DNA from: Asticcacaulis aquaticus
GTDB lineage: Bacteria; Pseudomonadota; Alphaproteobacteria; Caulobacterales; Caulobacteraceae
Length of the DNA: 64,000 nt
Assembly: GCF_028550415.1 (NCBI RefSeq)
Contig: NZ_JAQQKX010000001.1
Coordinates: 310,001 to 374,000 of the forward strand
Direction of reading: 5' to 3'
Each line of letters opens with the position of its first letter. Position 1 is the stretch's first letter. Shown here piece after piece: positions 1,917-47,671 of this stretch. The translations under genes were made by a program, and so were the position numbers. The notes under the pieces are model-generated. The model did no database searches. It saw only the letters and a program-made list of their open reading frames with translations, and was not told where the DNA came from.

Positions 1917-2052
1917 TTGGTTCAACCGTCAGCTTTAACCGGCTATTTTCATTACAAAAATGTCATTCAGCCTGCGTTCAGGTAAGGTCGCCTATGCCTT
2001 GGTTACGGGGCATGGGTTGGGAACTTGGCCCTTTGTTCAAATTGTTTGTTTG

Positions 2053-2098
2053 TCGCGCATTTATATCCGAAAACCGCTACACACTTTTCGGAAACGGA
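2053..2098. repeat. Dispersed palindromic element, copy 1
   Basis: The copy carries the CGCGCATTT block, TCCGAAAACCG and the complementary arm CACTTTTCGGAA of the family found repeatedly in this window. Its last bases diverge from the usual ATGCGCTC end. It lies about 42 bases before the lipoprotein start at 2141, and the AT-rich flank preceding it resembles the flank of the copies at 2815 and 46459. Confidence 0.75.
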
Positions 2099-2140
2099 GT
2101 TCGGCGTAGCCAATGCGCTTTAAGAAAAAGGAGCCATCTC

Positions 2141-2283: not shown

Positions 2284-2409
2284 ATGAAAACGGTTTTGAA
2301 ATTCGCCCTGCTCGGTGCCCTCGCCGCTTCGCTGTCGGCCTGCATCATCATCGTCAAGGATGGCCACCCGCAAAAGCCGCGCCCACCGGCGCATCAGGAT
2401 CACGCGTAA
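2284..2409 (+). CDS. Very small putative lipoprotein, 41 aa (second of a tandem pair)
   Basis: This reading frame is short. It starts at the ATG at 2284 with a signal peptide (MKTVLKFALLGALAASL) and lipobox LSAC (Cys about residue 20), then CIII and a Pro/Lys/His-rich tail of about 20 residues. Lipobox position, length and the residues following the cysteine resemble the gene 11 bases upstream. Its last 10 bases overlap the 3' end of the convergent glutathione S-transferase gene. The function is unknown. Confidence 0.6.
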   Translation: MKTVLKFALLGALAASLSACIIIVKDGHPQKPRPPAHQDHA

Positions 2410-3158
2410 GCGTAATCACCGCCGCGTTCCAGCGCGCGTTTATAGGCGTCCCAGCCATGAATGCGCGCGAGGAACGCGGTGACGTTCGGCAGGCTGTCGG
2501 CTCCGGCACGGCTAACCGCCGCCTCCAGCGGAAAACTCATCATGATATCGGCGGCGGTCAGGGCGTCGCCCGCAAACCAGCCCGTGGCCTCCAGCGACGA
2601 TTCCCAAAAGGCAAAATGCGCCGTCAGACCCGGCGCGACCATGGATCTTTCCAGACCGCCGGAAATAAGCTTCGCGATAGGCCTGATCAAGAACGGTACA
2701 CGCTTGGGAATCTGCGACGCTACCAGCTTGAGCAGCAATAAGGGCATGGCCGAGCCTTCGGCATAGTGCATCCAGTAGGTCATCTGCCGCCGCACTGCCG
2801 GGTCGCTTGGCACCAGAGCACATCCCGCTCCGTTTGGATCGGAATCGTGCTCTGAATTTTTATTTGATCGCGCATTTGATTCCGAAAACCGTTGCACACT
2901 TTTCGGAATGCGCTCGGATTGTCCCCGCCCATAGGTTTCCAGAATATAATCGACGATATTGCCGGTCTCGGCGACCACCACCTCGCCATCGACGACGATC
3001 GGCGATTTGCCGAGTGGATGGATGTCCTTCAGTTCCGGCGGTGCGAACATCCGGGCGTCGCGCTCGTAATGAACGACCTCGTACTCAAGCCCCAGTTCTT
3101 CCAGCAGCCACAGAACGCGTTGAGATCGGGAGTTATTGAGATGATGGACCGTGATCAT
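2400..3158 (-). CDS. Glutathione S-transferase with an in-frame repeat-derived insertion
   Basis: The N-terminal thioredoxin-like GST domain (residues 1-79) has the HHLNNSRSQRVLWLLEELG active-site helix and the cis-Pro/ETGNIVDYILE glutathione-binding segment. The helical C-terminal domain resumes at LVPSDPAVRRQ (about residue 115). Between them, residues about 80-114 are not GST sequence. They are encoded by 2817-2921, which coincides with a composite palindromic repeat also found between genes in this window. The insertion is a multiple of three and contains no stop, so the frame is kept; without it the protein would be about 217 aa, normal for the family. It falls in the linker between the two domains, where extra length may be tolerated. 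Activity and substrate are unknown. Confidence 0.85.
   Translation of the reverse strand: MITVHHLNNSRSQRVLWLLEELGLEYEVVHYERDARMFAPPELKDIHPLGKSPIVVDGEVVVAETGNIVDYILETYGRGQSERIPKSVQRFSESNARSNKNSEHDSDPNGAGCALVPSDPAVRRQMTYWMHYAEGSAMPLLLLKLVASQIPKRVPFLIRPIAKLISGGLERSMVAPGLTAHFAFWESSLEATGWFAGDALTAADIMMSFPLEAAVSRAGADSLPNVTAFLARIHGWDAYKRALERGGDYAYA
2815..2915. repeat. Composite palindromic element inside the GST gene, copy 2
   Basis: Two parts are visible. A hairpin has arms AGAGCAC (2815-2821) and GTGCTCT (2847-2853). It is followed by an AT-rich link and the common palindrome 2868-2915 (CGCGCATTTG, TTCCGAAAACCG, CACTTTTCGGAATGCGCTC). The second part is nearly identical to the copies at 42584 and 46459. 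This is the only copy here within a coding sequence. Confidence 0.85.
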
Positions 3159-26091: not shown

Positions 26092-27876
26092 ATGTTCGCG
26101 AAAATCCTGCGTTTCGTCTGTCTGCTGTTCGTCCTGACCGGCACCGCCATGGCGGCGGAAAAGATGCCGTCGCGCTATGACGAGATGCGCGAATTTTATC
26201 TCGATACCGGCCATCAGAACATGCCCTTCAAGCTGTGGGGCGTGTCGATGACGTGGCACCGCGAGTGTCAGGCGGGCAAGGTCGCGCAATGCGTGAAGCT
26301 GGCCGAGGCATTCGAGACCGGGCTGGGCCCACTGCGGGCCGACATGCGGGTGGCGCTCGGCTACTGGCGGCTGGCCTGTAAAGCAGGCAGCGGCCACGGC
26401 TGTGCGCGTACTGCCGAGGTCATCCTGTCGGGCGAAGCCAATTTCGTCAATGTCGACATGGCGCGTCAATTCGCCAAAACCGGCTGTGAAACCTACAAGA
26501 CGCCCAAGGCCTGTTCGGCTCTGGCTCAGGCCCTGATGCGCGGCCCTGATGCGGCGCAAAATCGGGCACAGGCCGACGCCCTGATCGCGCAGGCCTGTGC
26601 GGCGAATGACGACGACGGCTGCCGGATTCAGGCGCGCCAGTGGTTCGACGAAACGACCGATGTGGCGCTCAACAAAAAGGCCGTGCCGCTGTTCGAAAAG
26701 GGTTGCGCCGCGAAACAGGCCTGGGGGTGCAGTGGTCTGGCGGAGGCCTATAATCAGGGCAAAGGCGTGCCGCTCGATGCCACCAGGGCCCGCGCCGCGG
26801 CTGAGACCGGCTGCGTCAGTTCGACCGGCGACCGGGTCAGGGCCTGCCGCCTCTACGGCATGTTCCTGATCAAGGGCGACAAGGCGTCGCTGAACAAGGG
26901 CGAGAAGTTTCTCGATACCTCGTGTCAGGCGGGCGACGGCGTCGCCTGCGTCGTCATCGGGCAGATCGGTATGTACGGCAAGAGGCCCGGCGCCACGACG
27001 AACCAGATGGAAGGGCTCTATTTCATGCGCCGGGGCTGCGACCTCAATAACGGTCAGGCCTGCGACGAGCTGTCCTACGCCTATCAGAAAGGGCTGGGCA
27101 TTCCCGGCCACGGCGGCGTGACCATCGCGCTCCTCGATAAGTCGTGCCGGCTGGGCTGGGCCAATGGCTGCAAATACGCGAAGATGGTCGCCGACAGCAA
27201 TCCCGGCATCCGCGGCACGATCCCGAAGATCGACCCCAGCCTGACGGTCACCCAGCAACTGGCCGAGGCGCAGACATACGTCAAATCGGCCAGTGCCGCC
27301 GACCGCAACGAAGGCGTCAATGCCGTCGTGCGCCTGATGCAGGAAGGGAATGAAGACGCAGCGTGGGTTATTGGCGGCTGGCTGGTCTATGGCCTTGACG
27401 GCGTGTTCGACACCTCGCGCAAGGCCGAGGGCATCATTGCGATCGAGAACGCCGCGCGCGTCGGCCACGTCGAAGCCGCCATCTGGATCGGCATGGCCTA
27501 CTGGTACGGCGACGGCGTCAAGGAAGACCGCAAAAAGGGCGAAAACTACATGCTGATCGCCGCCAGCCGCGGCAGCGAAATGGCCGAAGGCATCTACCGC
27601 TCGATGCTGGCCGAACCGATCCGCGTCGAAAGCAAGCGCCGCGCTGAGGAATTCGCCGCCTATCAGAAGGCGCAGTATGAGCGCTGGTCGCGGTGGAACG
27701 CCTCGGCGTACGCCAACTACGTCTCGGCGGGTTCGACCTATACGCCGTACAAGTCGAGCAGCTATTCCGGCCAGAGCGTGTCCTCGATCATCGACAATTC
27801 CAACTGGAACCAGATGTACAACTACCTGTCCGGTTCCACGACCGCCTGCCCGTCATCCAACCCCTATTGCCGTTAA
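26092..27876 (+). CDS. Secreted Sel1-repeat (SLR) protein
   Basis: The 594-aa protein has a cleavable signal peptide (MFAKILRFVCLLFVLTGTAMAAE). The body is built from Sel1-like/TPR-like helical pairs rich in paired cysteines, for example ACKAGSGHGCARTAE, CAANDDDGCRI, CAAKQAWGCSGLAEAY and CDLNNGQACDELSYAYQKG; many repeats could be cross-linked by disulfides. A canonical SLR follows near residues 450-490 (AARVGHVEAAIWIGMAYWYGDG is the core, shown here only in part: AIWIGMAYWYGDGVKED). The last 70 residues are Tyr/Ser-rich. Sel1 proteins usually act as periplasmic adaptors; the partner here is unknown. It is the first gene of the plus-strand block between rplJ and rplA. Confidence 0.82.
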   Translation: MFAKILRFVCLLFVLTGTAMAAEKMPSRYDEMREFYLDTGHQNMPFKLWGVSMTWHRECQAGKVAQCVKLAEAFETGLGPLRADMRVALGYWRLACKAGSGHGCARTAEVILSGEANFVNVDMARQFAKTGCETYKTPKACSALAQALMRGPDAAQNRAQADALIAQACAANDDDGCRIQARQWFDETTDVALNKKAVPLFEKGCAAKQAWGCSGLAEAYNQGKGVPLDATRARAAAETGCVSSTGDRVRACRLYGMFLIKGDKASLNKGEKFLDTSCQAGDGVACVVIGQIGMYGKRPGATTNQMEGLYFMRRGCDLNNGQACDELSYAYQKGLGIPGHGGVTIALLDKSCRLGWANGCKYAKMVADSNPGIRGTIPKIDPSLTVTQQLAEAQTYVKSASAADRNEGVNAVVRLMQEGNEDAAWVIGGWLVYGLDGVFDTSRKAEGIIAIENAARVGHVEAAIWIGMAYWYGDGVKEDRKKGENYMLIAASRGSEMAEGIYRSMLAEPIRVESKRRAEEFAAYQKAQYERWSRWNASAYANYVSAGSTYTPYKSSSYSGQSVSSIIDNSNWNQMYNYLSGSTTACPSSNPYCR

Positions 27877-27882
27877 TATTTA

Positions 27883-27928
27883 ACGCGCATCTTATCCGAA
27901 AACCGTTTCACACGTTTCGGGATGCGCT
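27883..27928. repeat. Dispersed palindromic element, copy 5
   Basis: The segment ACGCGCAT, TCCGAAAACCG, CACGTTTCGGGATGCGCT matches the family with small changes. It fills nearly all of the gap between the Sel1 gene and the next start codon at 27943, fourteen bases away. Confidence 0.8.
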
Positions 27929-27942
27929 AGAGAGGAACTTCC

Positions 27943-38407: not shown

Positions 38408-40639
38408 CTACTCCGAATCCTTAAGCTTGCGGGCGAAGAAGTCGAGATAGAGCCGGTAGCGGAACAGGTTCTTAGCATTGCCGCGCACGCCGTGACGCTC
38501 GCCGGGGAACAGCATCAGTTCGAACGGGATCGACTTCTTTTGCAGGCCGTCGATGACCCGCGTCGTGTTCTGCAGGATCACATTGTCATCGGCCATGCCG
38601 TGCATCAGCAGCAGGCTGTTCGGCTTGAGATTATCAAGACGGTTGACCACATCATACTTCGCGTAATTCTCGGCATTGGCCTGCGGCATCGACATATAGC
38701 GCTCGGTATAGGCGGTATCATACAACCCCCACTCGGTCGGCGGCGCGCCGGCGGCCCCGGCGACGAACGGCGTATCCTTGGCCGTCAAGGCCATCAGGGT
38801 GACGAAGCCGCCCTGCGACCAGCCCATCATGCCGATCTTGTCCGCCTTCACGTAAGGCAGGGTTTGCAGCCACTTGCCGCCCGCGATCTGGTCGTCGATG
38901 TCCGCCCCGCCGAACGACTTATAGATGGCGCGCTGGAACTTGACCGAGCGATTGGGCGTCCCACGGTTATCGAGGACGAAGACGATGTAACCGGCCTCCT
39001 GAAACAGGCGATTGGCCGGTGAGACCCAGGCGCGCTTGACGTCCTGACGCGCCGGACCGCCGTAGATCGAGACGATGACCGGATATTTCTTCGCCGGATC
39101 GAAGCCCTTGGGTTTCAGCATCAGCCAGTGCAGGGTTTCACCATCGGCGGCTTTCATCGTACCGAATTCCGGCGCGCTGTAGCTGTCCTTATAGGCGAAG
39201 TACGGATGCTTGTCGGTGTAGGCGTTTTCCTCGATCCAGCGCACGCGCTTGCCGGTCGAGTCATAGAGCGCAGTCTGCGACGGCGTCGCCGGGTCGGAAT
39301 AGGTGCCGATAAAGGCCTTGCCATTACCCGCGACATCGGTCGCCCACCAGCCGCCGTCCTTGGTCAGGGCGACCGGTTCGGCGGCCTTCGTATAGGCGAC
39401 CTTGTACAGGCCCATTTCGATCGGCGTTTTGTACGACGCCTCGAACCATACCTCGCCCTTGGCCTCGTCCAGAGCCGCGACCTTGGCGACCGGGAAGTCG
39501 CCGTGCGTCACCTGCCGGACCAGCTTGCCCGCCTTGTCATACAGATAGAGGTGGTTGTTGCCGTCGCGTTCCGACGACCAGATGAAGCCGCCGTCTTTCA
39601 GCAGACGCAGGTCGTTGTGCAACTCGACCCAGGTGTCCGAAGTCTCGCTGAGCACGGTTTGCGCCGCGCCGCCAGTCGCCGAATATTTCAGCAGATCAAG
39701 GGTTTGTTGATTTCGGCTCAGGCGCTGAACATAGATCGACTGCCCGTCCGCCGCCCAGTTGACGCGCGCCAGATAGATGTCCGTATTGGCCCCCAGATCG
39801 AGCGGCGTATCGGTGCCGGTCTTCATATCGTGCACGAACAGGCTGACGATGGCGTTGGGGCGTCCGGCCTTGGGGTAGCGCTGATCGATGATTTTCGCGC
39901 CCGTACCGCTGATCTCAAAGCGCTCTACGATATCGACGGGGGTTTCATCGACCTTGGCATAAACGATCTTGCTACCGTCCGGCGACCACCAGTAACCCGT
40001 ATAACGCCCCAGTTCTTCCTGCGAAATGAACTCGGCCACACCATAGGAGATCACCCCCTCGCCCTTCGGCGAGACGGCAATTTCCTTGCCGGTAGCCAGA
40101 TCCTGCACATAAAGCGTCTGATCGCGGACATAGGCGACCTGGCCCCCTTTCGGATTCAGCTTGGCATCGACCTCGTCGCCTTCGGTTTGCGTGGCGCGGG
40201 TAATTTTCTTCGTGGCACGATCGACGATGTAGATATCGCCATCGAGCGGCACCAGAATCGACTTCGACGACGAGTCCCAGTCATAGGCCACCACACCGCG
40301 CGCCGAAACGCGCATCCGTTCGCGCCGCGCCTTTTCGGCTTCGGACAGTTCCTTGCCCGCCGACGACAGGCTGTCGGCATCGACCAGCACGTAAGGCTCC
40401 CCGCCCTTGACATCGACCGCCCACAGATCCTGCACCGTAGCATTGCTCAGTTTCGGCTTGAGAAAGGTCAGCAATGTGCCGTCCGGCGACAGCTTGGCCC
40501 CCACCGCCTTCGGCCCCGACAGGTCCGGATCGGCGAACACGCGCTCCGGCGTCAGGGTGGCTTGCGCGGCGGCGCTCATCGGCGAAAACATCAGCGTGAC
40601 TCCGAGCAGCGCGGCGGCAGCGGTGGCGGTTTTGAACAT
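38408..40639 (-). CDS. Exported S9-family prolyl oligopeptidase (dipeptidyl peptidase IV-like)
   Basis: The 743-aa protein has a signal peptide (MFKTATAAAALLGVTLMFSP). An eight-bladed beta-propeller N-terminal domain (to about residue 480) precedes an alpha/beta-hydrolase domain. The catalytic triad is visible: Ser in MGWSQGGFV, Asp in HGMADDNVI and His in PGERHGV. The Glu pair motif DETPVDIVERF-like segment near residue 250 fits DPP4-type enzymes, which remove Xaa-Pro dipeptides. The ATG at 40639 is the start; longer in-frame sequence upstream comes from a palindromic repeat. Likely periplasmic peptide degradation. Confidence 0.9.
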   Translation of the reverse strand: MFKTATAAAALLGVTLMFSPMSAAAQATLTPERVFADPDLSGPKAVGAKLSPDGTLLTFLKPKLSNATVQDLWAVDVKGGEPYVLVDADSLSSAGKELSEAEKARRERMRVSARGVVAYDWDSSSKSILVPLDGDIYIVDRATKKITRATQTEGDEVDAKLNPKGGQVAYVRDQTLYVQDLATGKEIAVSPKGEGVISYGVAEFISQEELGRYTGYWWSPDGSKIVYAKVDETPVDIVERFEISGTGAKIIDQRYPKAGRPNAIVSLFVHDMKTGTDTPLDLGANTDIYLARVNWAADGQSIYVQRLSRNQQTLDLLKYSATGGAAQTVLSETSDTWVELHNDLRLLKDGGFIWSSERDGNNHLYLYDKAGKLVRQVTHGDFPVAKVAALDEAKGEVWFEASYKTPIEMGLYKVAYTKAAEPVALTKDGGWWATDVAGNGKAFIGTYSDPATPSQTALYDSTGKRVRWIEENAYTDKHPYFAYKDSYSAPEFGTMKAADGETLHWLMLKPKGFDPAKKYPVIVSIYGGPARQDVKRAWVSPANRLFQEAGYIVFVLDNRGTPNRSVKFQRAIYKSFGGADIDDQIAGGKWLQTLPYVKADKIGMMGWSQGGFVTLMALTAKDTPFVAGAAGAPPTEWGLYDTAYTERYMSMPQANAENYAKYDVVNRLDNLKPNSLLLMHGMADDNVILQNTTRVIDGLQKKSIPFELMLFPGERHGVRGNAKNLFRYRLYLDFFARKLKDSE

Positions 40640-40662
40640 GGAAATATCCCGGAACTTTTTTG

Positions 40663-40708
40663 ACGCGCATCTCCTCCGAAAACCGGTGGCCACTTTTCGG
40701 GATGCGCT
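40663..40708. repeat. Dispersed palindromic element, copy 6
   Basis: ACGCGCAT, TCCGAAAACCGG, CCACTTTTCGGGATGCGCT. It lies 23 bases upstream of the S9 peptidase start. Confidence 0.8.
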
Positions 40709-40763
40709 CGATGCGGGAGGCTAGACCTATCACGCCGCAACGGTCAAGCGGTTACGTCGGTTA

Positions 40764-42506: not shown

Positions 42507-42583
42507 GCGGTCGCGCTCGTTACGAATGAAAGGAGGATGGCTCCTGTCCTAGATTTGCGCCGCGCCCTTGTCCAGAGGGTTAA

Positions 42584-42631
42584 GAGCGCATTCCGAAAAG
42601 TGTGCAGCGGTTTTCGGAATCAAATGCGCGA
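42584..42631. repeat. Dispersed palindromic element, copy 7
   Basis: GAGCGCATTCCGAAAAGTG, then CGGTTTTCGGAATCAAATGCGCGA. It is nearly identical to the copies in the GST gene and at 46459, in inverted orientation to the former. It lies six bases past the rlmB stop and about 78 bases upstream of the TerC gene. Confidence 0.85.
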
Positions 42632-42637
42632 AAAAGA

Positions 42638-43573
42638 CTATTCTGCAGGGATAATCTCGCGACCGAGGCTTTCATACAGCGCAATCGATGTCGCGTGGCT
42701 GACATTGAGGCTCTCGAATCCGCCGGGCATGGGGATCTTGACCAGAAAATCGCAGTGTTCGGCCACAAGGCGGCGGATGCCCTCGCCTTCCGAGCCCATG
42801 ACGATGACCAGACCGCGCGGGCTGCCCTGACCGCGCCAGACCTGCTGCTCAAGGACGGCTTGCAGGCTGTGTTCGGCCTCACCTGCCATGCCCAGCGTGA
42901 CGAAACCATTTTCCGACAGCGCCTCAAGCGCCCGCGACAGGTTGGTCACGCGCGCAAACGGCACCATATCCATCGCGCCCGCGGCCGTCTTGGCCAGCAC
43001 GCCCTGCATGACCGGCGAATGGCGATCCTGCATGATCAGGCCCGCCGCCCCGAACGCCGCGCAGGTGCGGAAGATCGCGCCGATATTCTGCGGATCGGTG
43101 ACCTGATCGAGCATGATAATGACCGGGGTCGGACGATTGAGGGCCAGCTCCATCAGCGAATCGATATCTTCGCCGTCCAGCGGCGGGGCATTGAGCGCGA
43201 TGCCCTGATGGACCGCGCCCTGCGGCAGAAAGCTGGAGAACTCCGCCATTTCGGTCAGGCGCTGATGCACATCACCGCGTTTCAAAGCCCCCGCAAACAG
43301 GGTTTTCTGCCGCTCCGCCGTCAGATAAAGCCGGATCGGCCCCTTACGCGACAAATTTTTAAGCGCCGCGTCGACCGCGTGCAGGCCCCACACCCACCCA
43401 TCTTCGCTGGCCTTAGGCTTTTGAAAAGACTGAGATTTCGAAGGACGCCCACCGTCCTGCATCACGGGGCGCGCAGGCCCCTTATCGCGACTTTTCCCCT
43501 GAAAACCCGATTTTTTGTCGAAGTTTTGCCCCTTGCGCGCCTTAGGGTCGTTGCGTTCGCGATTTGATGACAC
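42638..43573 (-). CDS. rlmB: 23S rRNA (guanosine-2'-O)-methyltransferase RlmB family
   Basis: The protein is 311 aa from a GTG at 43573. An Arg/Lys/Gln-rich, probably disordered region (to about residue 55) precedes the substrate-binding domain (DGWVWGLHAVDAAL) and the SPOUT domain with motifs DQVTDPQNIGAIFRTCAA, MGSEGEGIRRL and IPMPGGFESLNVSHA. RlmB methylates G2251 in the ribosomal P-loop; SpoU relatives can act elsewhere. The start is uncertain: the frame stays open to 43657 (TTG). The GTG at 43573 has a GGAG upstream, so I prefer it. The gene is divergent from the tRNA-Tyr/tRNA-Gly/tuf unit. Confidence 0.88.
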   Translation of the reverse strand: MSSNRERNDPKARKGQNFDKKSGFQGKSRDKGPARPVMQDGGRPSKSQSFQKPKASEDGWVWGLHAVDAALKNLSRKGPIRLYLTAERQKTLFAGALKRGDVHQRLTEMAEFSSFLPQGAVHQGIALNAPPLDGEDIDSLMELALNRPTPVIIMLDQVTDPQNIGAIFRTCAAFGAAGLIMQDRHSPVMQGVLAKTAAGAMDMVPFARVTNLSRALEALSENGFVTLGMAGEAEHSLQAVLEQQVWRGQGSPRGLVIVMGSEGEGIRRLVAEHCDFLVKIPMPGGFESLNVSHATSIALYESLGREIIPAE

Positions 43574-46326: not shown

Positions 46327-46458
46327 GGAAATCCCCTTCATACCGGGGACTTTGGCACACGGCCACCGATGCCAAAACCCACGTTCAGGGGTTAGCGCAT
46401 AAAAAGAGACCGTGTTTACGTGTCGTTTGTTTCAGGCATGTAATGTGGAGCGCGACCA

Positions 46459-46523
46459 GAGCGCATTCCGAAAAGTGTGCAACGGTTTTCGGAAGCAAAT
46501 GCGCGACAAAACAAAAAATTCAG
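46459..46523. repeat. Dispersed palindromic element, copy 8
   Basis: GAGCGCATTCCGAAAAGTGTG, with the internal 20-base limit respected here: arms GAGCGCATTCCGAAAAG and CGGTTTTCGG..AAATGCGCGA, then an AT-rich tail ending AAAAAATTCAG. The tail resembles that of the GST copy, so the conserved unit exceeds the palindrome. It lies 20 bases upstream of the acyltransferase start. Confidence 0.85.
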
Positions 46524-46543
46524 CCTTCAGGGGAATATTTTAT

Positions 46544-47671
46544 ATGACTATCACGCGGGTGGACGTGATCAGACCGGCTGAACTGAGCGATACAGATAGG
46601 GCGTTGTGGTCGCAATGGGTGGCGGAAAACCCCGATCTGTCAGGGCCTTATTTCGATGTCCGCTATGTCGTGGCCCTGGGCGAAACGGTCCCGCACGCCC
46701 GCATCGCCAAACTATATGCCGACGGCTACCTGATGGGTTTCCTGCCGTTTCAGAAGCGCGGAGGTGTCATTCAACCGCTGGGCGCGCCGCTGACCGATTT
46801 TCATGGCGTGATTGCCGCCTCCACCACGCGCATCGACATCGGCGACGTACTCTCGCACCTCAAAAGCCGCCGTATCGAGTTCAATGGCTGGGTCAGTCCG
46901 CTGGCACAGGGCACCGAGCGTTTTCGCCTTTATGCCGATCTGAGCAACGGTTTCGACGCTCAGTACCGGACCTGCTACGACGCCCACAAAAAGTTTTACC
47001 GTAATACCGAACGCTGCCGCCGCAACCTGCACAAGGACGTGCCGGACTTAGCTTTCACATGGGAAACCGCCTCGCCCGATCTGATCGACTGGGTCGTGGC
47101 GCACAAGCGCCGTCAATATAAACGCACCGGTCTGCACGACGTCTTCGCCTGCGGCTGGACGCAGGACATGCTGAATGCCCTGAGCGTACACACCGATGTC
47201 GGCTTCGGTCTGATGGCCGGGGTCTATCGCCATAAAGGTCAGGTCATCGCCGCCGAAATCGTCCTGCGCAGTGGCCCCGACCTGCACCTGTGGTTCCCGG
47301 CCTATGACTCCGACTACAGCCGTTACGGCCCGGGCATTCTGCTGTCGCTCGATATCCTCAAGGCGGCGGCGCAGGATGGCATCACTCGCGTCGATTTCGG
47401 CTGCGGCGATGAGATTTATAAGGCGACCATGACCACGCATCGTCAACCCTGCCGCGAAGGCTATGTCCAGACGACCGCGCCGCTGATCGACCTGCACCTG
47501 AAAACGCGGGTGTCGATCATCCGGGCCTGCGAGACGCGCCTGTCGGGTCAGGTTATGGCGGGCTGGCAGTTGTCGCGTCGTGTGGTCATGAAGACGCGCA
47601 AGTCGGTGCTGGCCTTCGTCAGCCTGCTGGGCCTGATCGGCGGCACGATGATCGCCGTCGAGATGTTTTAA
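46544..47671 (+). CDS. GNAT-superfamily acyltransferase (BioF2/CelD-like; HfsK-like candidate)
   Basis: The 375-aa protein starts at the ATG at 46544 after AGGGGAA. Features are the N-terminal PYFDVRYVVALGE segment, a central QYRTCYDAHKKFYRNTERC and the C-terminal acyltransferase core AGVYRHKGQVIAAEIVLRSG, with LHLWFPAYDSDYSRYGPGIL and VDFGCGDEIYKATM, matching the Acetyltransf_6 group. Members acylate polysaccharides; in Caulobacter crescentus HfsK is such a protein acting on holdfast. A hydrophobic C-terminal helix (residues about 348-370) may anchor it to the membrane. Holdfast modification is plausible, not demonstrated; no hfs cluster is nearby. Confidence 0.75.
   Translation: MTITRVDVIRPAELSDTDRALWSQWVAENPDLSGPYFDVRYVVALGETVPHARIAKLYADGYLMGFLPFQKRGGVIQPLGAPLTDFHGVIAASTTRIDIGDVLSHLKSRRIEFNGWVSPLAQGTERFRLYADLSNGFDAQYRTCYDAHKKFYRNTERCRRNLHKDVPDLAFTWETASPDLIDWVVAHKRRQYKRTGLHDVFACGWTQDMLNALSVHTDVGFGLMAGVYRHKGQVIAAEIVLRSGPDLHLWFPAYDSDYSRYGPGILLSLDILKAAAQDGITRVDFGCGDEIYKATMTTHRQPCREGYVQTTAPLIDLHLKTRVSIIRACETRLSGQVMAGWQLSRRVVMKTRKSVLAFVSLLGLIGGTMIAVEMF

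Follow-up and report, generated by a model that had tools for sequence, protein, structure and literature searches.

A glutathione S-transferase (GST) gene of Asticcacaulis aquaticus carries within its coding sequence, and in frame, a complete copy of a palindromic repeat that is dispersed in the genome. The gene lies in the 64,000-nucleotide stretch of DNA that was analysed (the window), part of a 4.0-Mb draft assembly of 38 contigs. These data are very probably explained by the insertion of a non-autonomous dispersed palindromic element into the GST gene, insertions into genes being mostly purged and the survivors lying in frame in linkers or loops. The interpretation given by an initial annotation of the window, that of a mobile repeat tolerated in a flexible linker, is supported as a whole.

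The GST gene and its in-frame insert

The features of the insert-bearing gene are the following:

2400..3158, minus strand: insert-bearing GST gene, 252 amino acids (open reading frame and Pfam matches)
2817..2918, minus strand: net insertion of 102 bp, codons 81-114 (SERIPKSVQRFSESNARSNKNSEHDSDPNGAGCA), from DNA alignment with locus L031
2812..2918, minus strand: full two-armed palindromic element in the order arm 1, A-rich linker, arm 2 (model positions 1-107 of 107, 120.4 bits; fold)
2870..2913, minus strand: arm-1 core within the GST gene, with 0 mismatches to the 44-base core

The Pfam families GST_N and GST_C were matched by residues 4-73 (61.4 bits) and 177-233 (22.7 bits), respectively, both scores exceeding the cut-off. 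The insert is found after the end of the first match (73) and before the start of the second (177), in agreement with its earlier placement between the thioredoxin-like and helical domains. The palindromic repeat described in this gene by the initial annotation was confirmed by a covariance model, which matches the copy (itself among the 17 members of the model) end to end. The insertion is indeed in frame, but the size first given, 105 bp and residues 80-114, has to be corrected: DNA alignment with the insert-free orthologue of Asticcacaulis sp. YBE204 (L031), the nearest GST relative found in the public genome collection, gives 102 bp and 34 residues (81-114). The isolated copy folds into two hairpins (-46.7 kcal/mol, z = -6.6).

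The residues had been predicted to be absent from close relatives, and none of the relatives carries them. The insert is missing in 80/80 GST relatives of the public collection, with both flanks aligned and with 1-13 of residues 80-114 aligned as the usual short linker, and 0 of 33 tested insert residues could be aligned in the 14/14 relatives from the genus. In the genus genome G012, the GST match comes in two halves that adjoin with 0 bases between them. An ancestral origin of the residues, followed by loss in the relatives, is refuted for practical purposes by these 80/80 and 14/14 absences, and the segment moreover matches a dispersed repeat.

In the AlphaFold2 model of the protein (41 sequences, mean pLDDT of 87.7), the blocks covering residues 81-110 score 51-55; the insert is predicted as a low-confidence stretch, as for a flexible segment, in an otherwise confident GST model. 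The best solved-structure match of this model is 4hz4.

Structure of the element and its copies in the genome

The covariance model was built from 17 full genome copies and has 107 positions with a mean column identity of 84%. The consensus consists of two hairpin arms and an A-rich linker, with 34 consensus pairs, 10 of which differ at both positions in one copy or more. The full form is about 105 bp long and the half form about 57-60 bp. A search of the window with Rfam gave only four tRNA matches and no match at gathering score over the element. Similarity by chance was ruled out by the 44-base core, which gave 0 matches in 100 shuffles, and by the genome-wide matches of the model. Five other copies are present in the window:

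42581..42632, plus strand: half element (arm 1), outside genes (hairpin z = -3.7; model match 42581..42679, 61.7 bits)
46456..46523, plus strand: half element (arm 1 and linker), between genes (model match 46456..46583, 73 bits)
2032..2102, minus strand: degenerate element upstream of a small open reading frame (model match, 34.7 bits)
27856..27932, minus strand: degenerate element (model match, 37.1 bits)
40600..40712, minus strand: degenerate element (model match, 41.7 bits)

The near identity claimed earlier between the GST copy and those at 42584 and 46459 was verified, the 44-base cores at 42586..42629 and 46461..46504 having 1 mismatch each; both are half copies that contain the first arm.

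The search of the own genome with the model yielded at least 146 matches at E values up to 10, for 150 scored out of 1382 first-look candidates, so that weaker copies may be missed. The location of 129 matches was classified with genes called by a simple score of codon usage, for which the window and six trusted genes served as the training set; the 17 of the 146 that were left out comprise the matches under 31.4 bits and a partial one of 34.2 bits on the opposite strand. As a result, 66 copies are intergenic, 56 overlap a gene edge by less than half, 2 lie mostly over a gene end or start and 5 are inside genes, all five in frame. Since the coding fraction of the window is about 0.81 by the same method, the 5/129 proportion indicates that genes are strongly avoided. 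The earlier statement that the element can move into genes is supported within this limit. At 13 of the other 124 sites, coding-like sequence was found on both flanks on one strand, and some of these may be broken genes.

The half form occurs at many places and accounts for 4/7 of the gene insertions described below; arm 1 with the linker therefore seems to be a unit in its own right. Two half elements were observed head to tail (L021/L025, G000 C7:66098-66210). In addition, nine contig-end places of the genome share a 111-base sequence that matches records carrying the annotation IS5 family transposase. This sequence directly adjoins the palindromic element at 3/9 places (both ends of G000 C29 and the end of C8; L007, L023 and L019), and the element may be a target of the insertion sequence.

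Insertions in other genes of Asticcacaulis

The search for other copies inside coding sequences, proposed at the time of the initial annotation, led to seven in-frame sites in seven gene families, namely the GST, ApbA/PanE, FAD oxidoreductase, DnaE2, CysG, MetE and an MFS transporter, the last one in Bartonella. Besides the GST, the sites in Asticcacaulis are:

L002: ApbA/PanE-type 2-dehydropantoate 2-reductase (ketopantoate reductase), full element of 102 bp (NCBIfam 282 bits, cut-off 252)
L020: FAD-dependent amine oxidoreductase family protein, half element of 60 bp
L156: DnaE2-type error-prone DNA polymerase, half element (1360 bits, cut-off 939)
L299: CysG siroheme synthase, half element (506 bits, cut-off 400)
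Genome G017, single contig: MetE of this other Asticcacaulis genome, half element of 57 bp

The insert is missing from the genus relatives of ApbA (14/14, no more than 4 of the 33 insert residues being aligned) and of the FAD oxidoreductase (24/24, at most 1 of 20). The same is true for DnaE2 in 25/25 loci from 22 genomes, where the 7 of 18 residues aligned correspond to the usual short linker, and for MetE in 15/15 relatives with 0 residues aligned, a difference of 57 bp being seen against the four relatives displayed. No target duplication is visible at the MetE half element. The downstream bases CTCTGGTGCC are common to the GST (window 2815..2835) and ApbA (L002 1501..1520) copies; the empty ApbA site of G012 has CTCTGGTGCC too, and part of the sharing may be target likeness.

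The CysG insert is missing in 22/24 relatives, G012 and G004 carrying it at the same place. Comparison of the insert between the own genome and G012 revealed 0 synonymous and 1 nonsynonymous changes over 20 codons, a stretch too short to prove selection, against 63 and 15 in the rest of the gene. The position is the same in G000, G012 and G004 (L299, L385 and L389). It was also observed that G007, G013, G017 and G020 are devoid of the insert, though their CysG flanks resemble those of G004. This distribution would be compatible with parallel insertion, transfer or loss.

The 35-residue peptide was matched in 20/25 genomes of the genus at E values up to 1e-3. At the level of the class, the peptide profile was found at E values up to 1e-6 in 1/289 sampled genomes, that of the window itself, which indicates that the exact form is narrowly distributed and speaks against any wide claim. 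Nineteen of the long open frames that encode the peptide in other genomes were examined, and in one of them (MetE) the insert is in mid-gene, with coding-like sequence on either side. In an ABC permease carrying Pfam BPD_transp_1 (L420), in MutY (L431) and in TilS (L429) of other Asticcacaulis, the element seems to be added at or before the N-terminus. The remaining frames were rejected as being, by their look, intergenic, shadow or upstream frames. A TonB gene annotated in A. excentricus was also rejected as a further insertion, since it overlaps the match by 2 bases only.

A filled and an empty site on Bartonella plasmids

A full element is present, in frame, in the MFS transporter gene of plasmids of Bartonella sp. 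HY328 and HY329, the two plasmids with the filled site being complete sequences. In HY406 and HY761 the site is empty, the alignment with HY328/HY329 showing a clean gap of 102 bp. The sequence is GGCATTAG-CAATAG at the empty site and GGCATTAG-AGCG...GCTCTAA-CAATAG at the filled one, and no target duplication was seen between the two. By our reading of the sequence, the insert would be located in mid-transporter, in the loop between the two halves. The Asticcacaulis model matches the Bartonella copies over the full length of the model, and the outer stem of the Bartonella fold joins the ends of the copy. Between two 50-kb stretches of Bartonella plasmids, no further filled/empty pair was detected; five elements were found, four at corresponding places in both and one beyond the shared stretch.

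This independent pair and the intact orthologue of the GST gene were both counted in favour of insertion. As the assembly is a draft and some of its 38 contigs end in repeats, an assembly artefact or a chimera fusing the GST gene with the repeat was also considered. Such an origin is highly improbable: the site is mid-way in a 612-kb contig, a full-length relative lies in frame on the two complete Bartonella plasmids, and the MetE case was found on the single contig of G017.

Reading frame of the inserts

With frame +1 defined as GAG CGC ATT CCG, the number of stop-free sequences among the 17 full copies is 13 (+1), 5 (+2), 10 (+3), 16 (-1), 13 (-2) and 5 (-3), so that in four of the six frames 10/17 copies or more are open. 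The length added by either form is a multiple of three bases. All seven inserts have the same orientation relative to the gene, and 6/7 (GST, ApbA, FAD oxidoreductase, DnaE2, MetE and Bartonella) are read in frame +1, CysG being in +3. The +1 peptide is the most hydrophilic of the six, with a mean GRAVY of -1.35 and 36% of charged residues, the other five ranging from -0.64 to +0.25. The MetE site is biased, as it came from a query with the +1 peptide; the other six (five in the own genome and one in Bartonella) were obtained without any frame-specific query. Five of these 6 unbiased sites are in +1 (P = 0.005 for a particular one of the four mostly open frames and 0.02 for any of them, both values being post hoc and for few sites). 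Selection would retain the insertions whose peptide harms least, giving the frame bias; a preferred orientation of insertion is an alternative, and the data do not separate the two.

It could also be proposed that the GST is dispensable in this strain, the insert marking a decaying gene whose frame remains open by luck. Since GSTs are often redundant, the insert could be tolerated simply because the function was lost. Moreover, the insert occurs in a single lineage and, with four of the six frames mostly open, an insertion of matched length stays open fairly often. This explanation is nevertheless unlikely, as the GST gene contains neither stop nor frameshift and retains the conserved positions of the GST alignment, and as the same pattern was found in DnaE2, CysG, MetE and the ketopantoate reductase. 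The substitutions counted over the short CysG insert shared with G012 go in the same direction.

GANTC sites in the element

The GANTC motif was found in 17/21 full copies (at least 90 bits), with 20 sites in total, and in 65/129 classified copies. In the consensus fold, GAATC was placed by eye on the 3' side of the arm-1 stem and bulge. These sites, the strong hairpins and the CysG insert kept in two related genomes could suggest that the insert is in use, as an enzyme-altering linker, as a DNA or RNA hairpin or as a CcrM (GANTC) site within the gene. In 500 shuffles the mean number of sites was 11.5 (sd 3.2), a modest excess for the 20 observed, and the largest value among these shuffles was also 20. 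Furthermore, the GST insert is modelled with low confidence, as if flexible, and no conserved use was seen. A function of this kind is unlikely.

Proposed origin and movement of the inserts

In the explanation favoured here, namely insertion of a mobile element followed by purging, the GST insertion would postdate the split from the closest sampled relatives. One orientation and frame of both forms encodes a very hydrophilic, stop-free peptide (ERIPKSVQRFSESNARQNK...), and insertions into genes would mostly be purged, those that remain being in domain linkers or surface loops and mostly in one frame. The insert-bearing proteins are presumably made and working. REP or IS200/IS605-type elements are moved by a trans-acting enzyme that works on hairpin DNA. 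By analogy, we would guess that an enzyme acting in trans on hairpin DNA moves the present element, which would fit its movement; among the copies analysed, no transposase could be linked to the element and no fixed target rule was seen.

Comparison with known repeat families

The Caulobacter CcrM-associated intergenic repeats (CIR; Chen and Shapiro 2003, according to PMC2229807 and PMC10969869) share several properties with the present element in the accounts given there: a size of about 110 bp, two inverted-repeat arms with a linker, TA near the ends and dispersion in Alphaproteobacteria. GANTC motifs, which the CIRs have as well, occur in the present copies at a modest excess over shuffles. 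CIRs are described as not within genes and with stops in all six frames (PMC2229807), and as strictly intergenic (PMC10969869, a 2024 review). The Asticcacaulis copies differ from this description by their presence in genes (5/129), by several open frames (+1 in 13/17 and -1 in 16/17) and by GANTC outside the terminal loop of the consensus, as judged by eye. By structure and description, rather than by comparison with a published CIR sequence, the repeat resembles the CIR type. Size and palindromic make-up, as described, also bring it close to Bru-RS1 and Bru-RS2 of Brucella (103 and 106 bp in the account of PMC10800456) and to the RIME of Rhizobium, and weak partial relatives were detected by blastn in Ochrobactrum and Ensifer. 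In the open-licence literature, no report was found of CIR-type repeats inside genes or of in-frame copies of Bru-RS or RIME.

In-frame palindromic insertions are discussed mainly for Rickettsia and Wolbachia, whose genomes are small and decaying, a similar process in other prokaryotes being considered conceivable in PMC10969869. In the present data, such insertions into housekeeping-type enzymes are accompanied by empty sites, both in Bartonella and in a genus that is free-living, and involve a repeat type described as strictly intergenic. It can tentatively be proposed, as a possibility that we hold with some doubt, that protein-coding palindromes have a second and independent source in the CIR-type palindromes of free-living Alphaproteobacteria, mobile elements in which one sense frame is a ready-made hydrophilic linker, the same frame being kept in two orders (Caulobacterales and Hyphomicrobiales). 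If so, new protein segments would arise by insertion outside Rickettsiales as well. With orthologues that carry the insert and others that lack it, tolerance versus use becomes directly testable.

The Wolbachia protein-coding palindromes and the enterobacterial RU elements, small repeats reported within coding sequence, belong to other hosts and are likened to the present element by their descriptions. Rickettsia palindromic elements (RPE), to which the insertion had first been compared, are palindromic, 105-150 bp long and found both in frame in unrelated protein genes and between genes, nearly half of the R. conorii copies being in genes (as stated in PMC2229807 and PMC10969869). The present element is similarly palindromic and in frame within unrelated conserved genes (seven sites in seven families). 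Unlike RPE, its hosts, Asticcacaulis and Bartonella, are of a different order and not Rickettsia, its Asticcacaulis copies fold as two arms, where RPE form a single long stem with terminal inverted repeats, and 5/129 classified copies are genic, against the proportion of nearly half given for R. conorii. The likeness to RPE first put forward therefore holds for the mode of action, but a common ancestry goes beyond what the comparison supports. The repeat works like an RPE but is assigned here to neither CIR nor RPE, and on the descriptions compared its closer structural relatives would be the CIR-type repeats.
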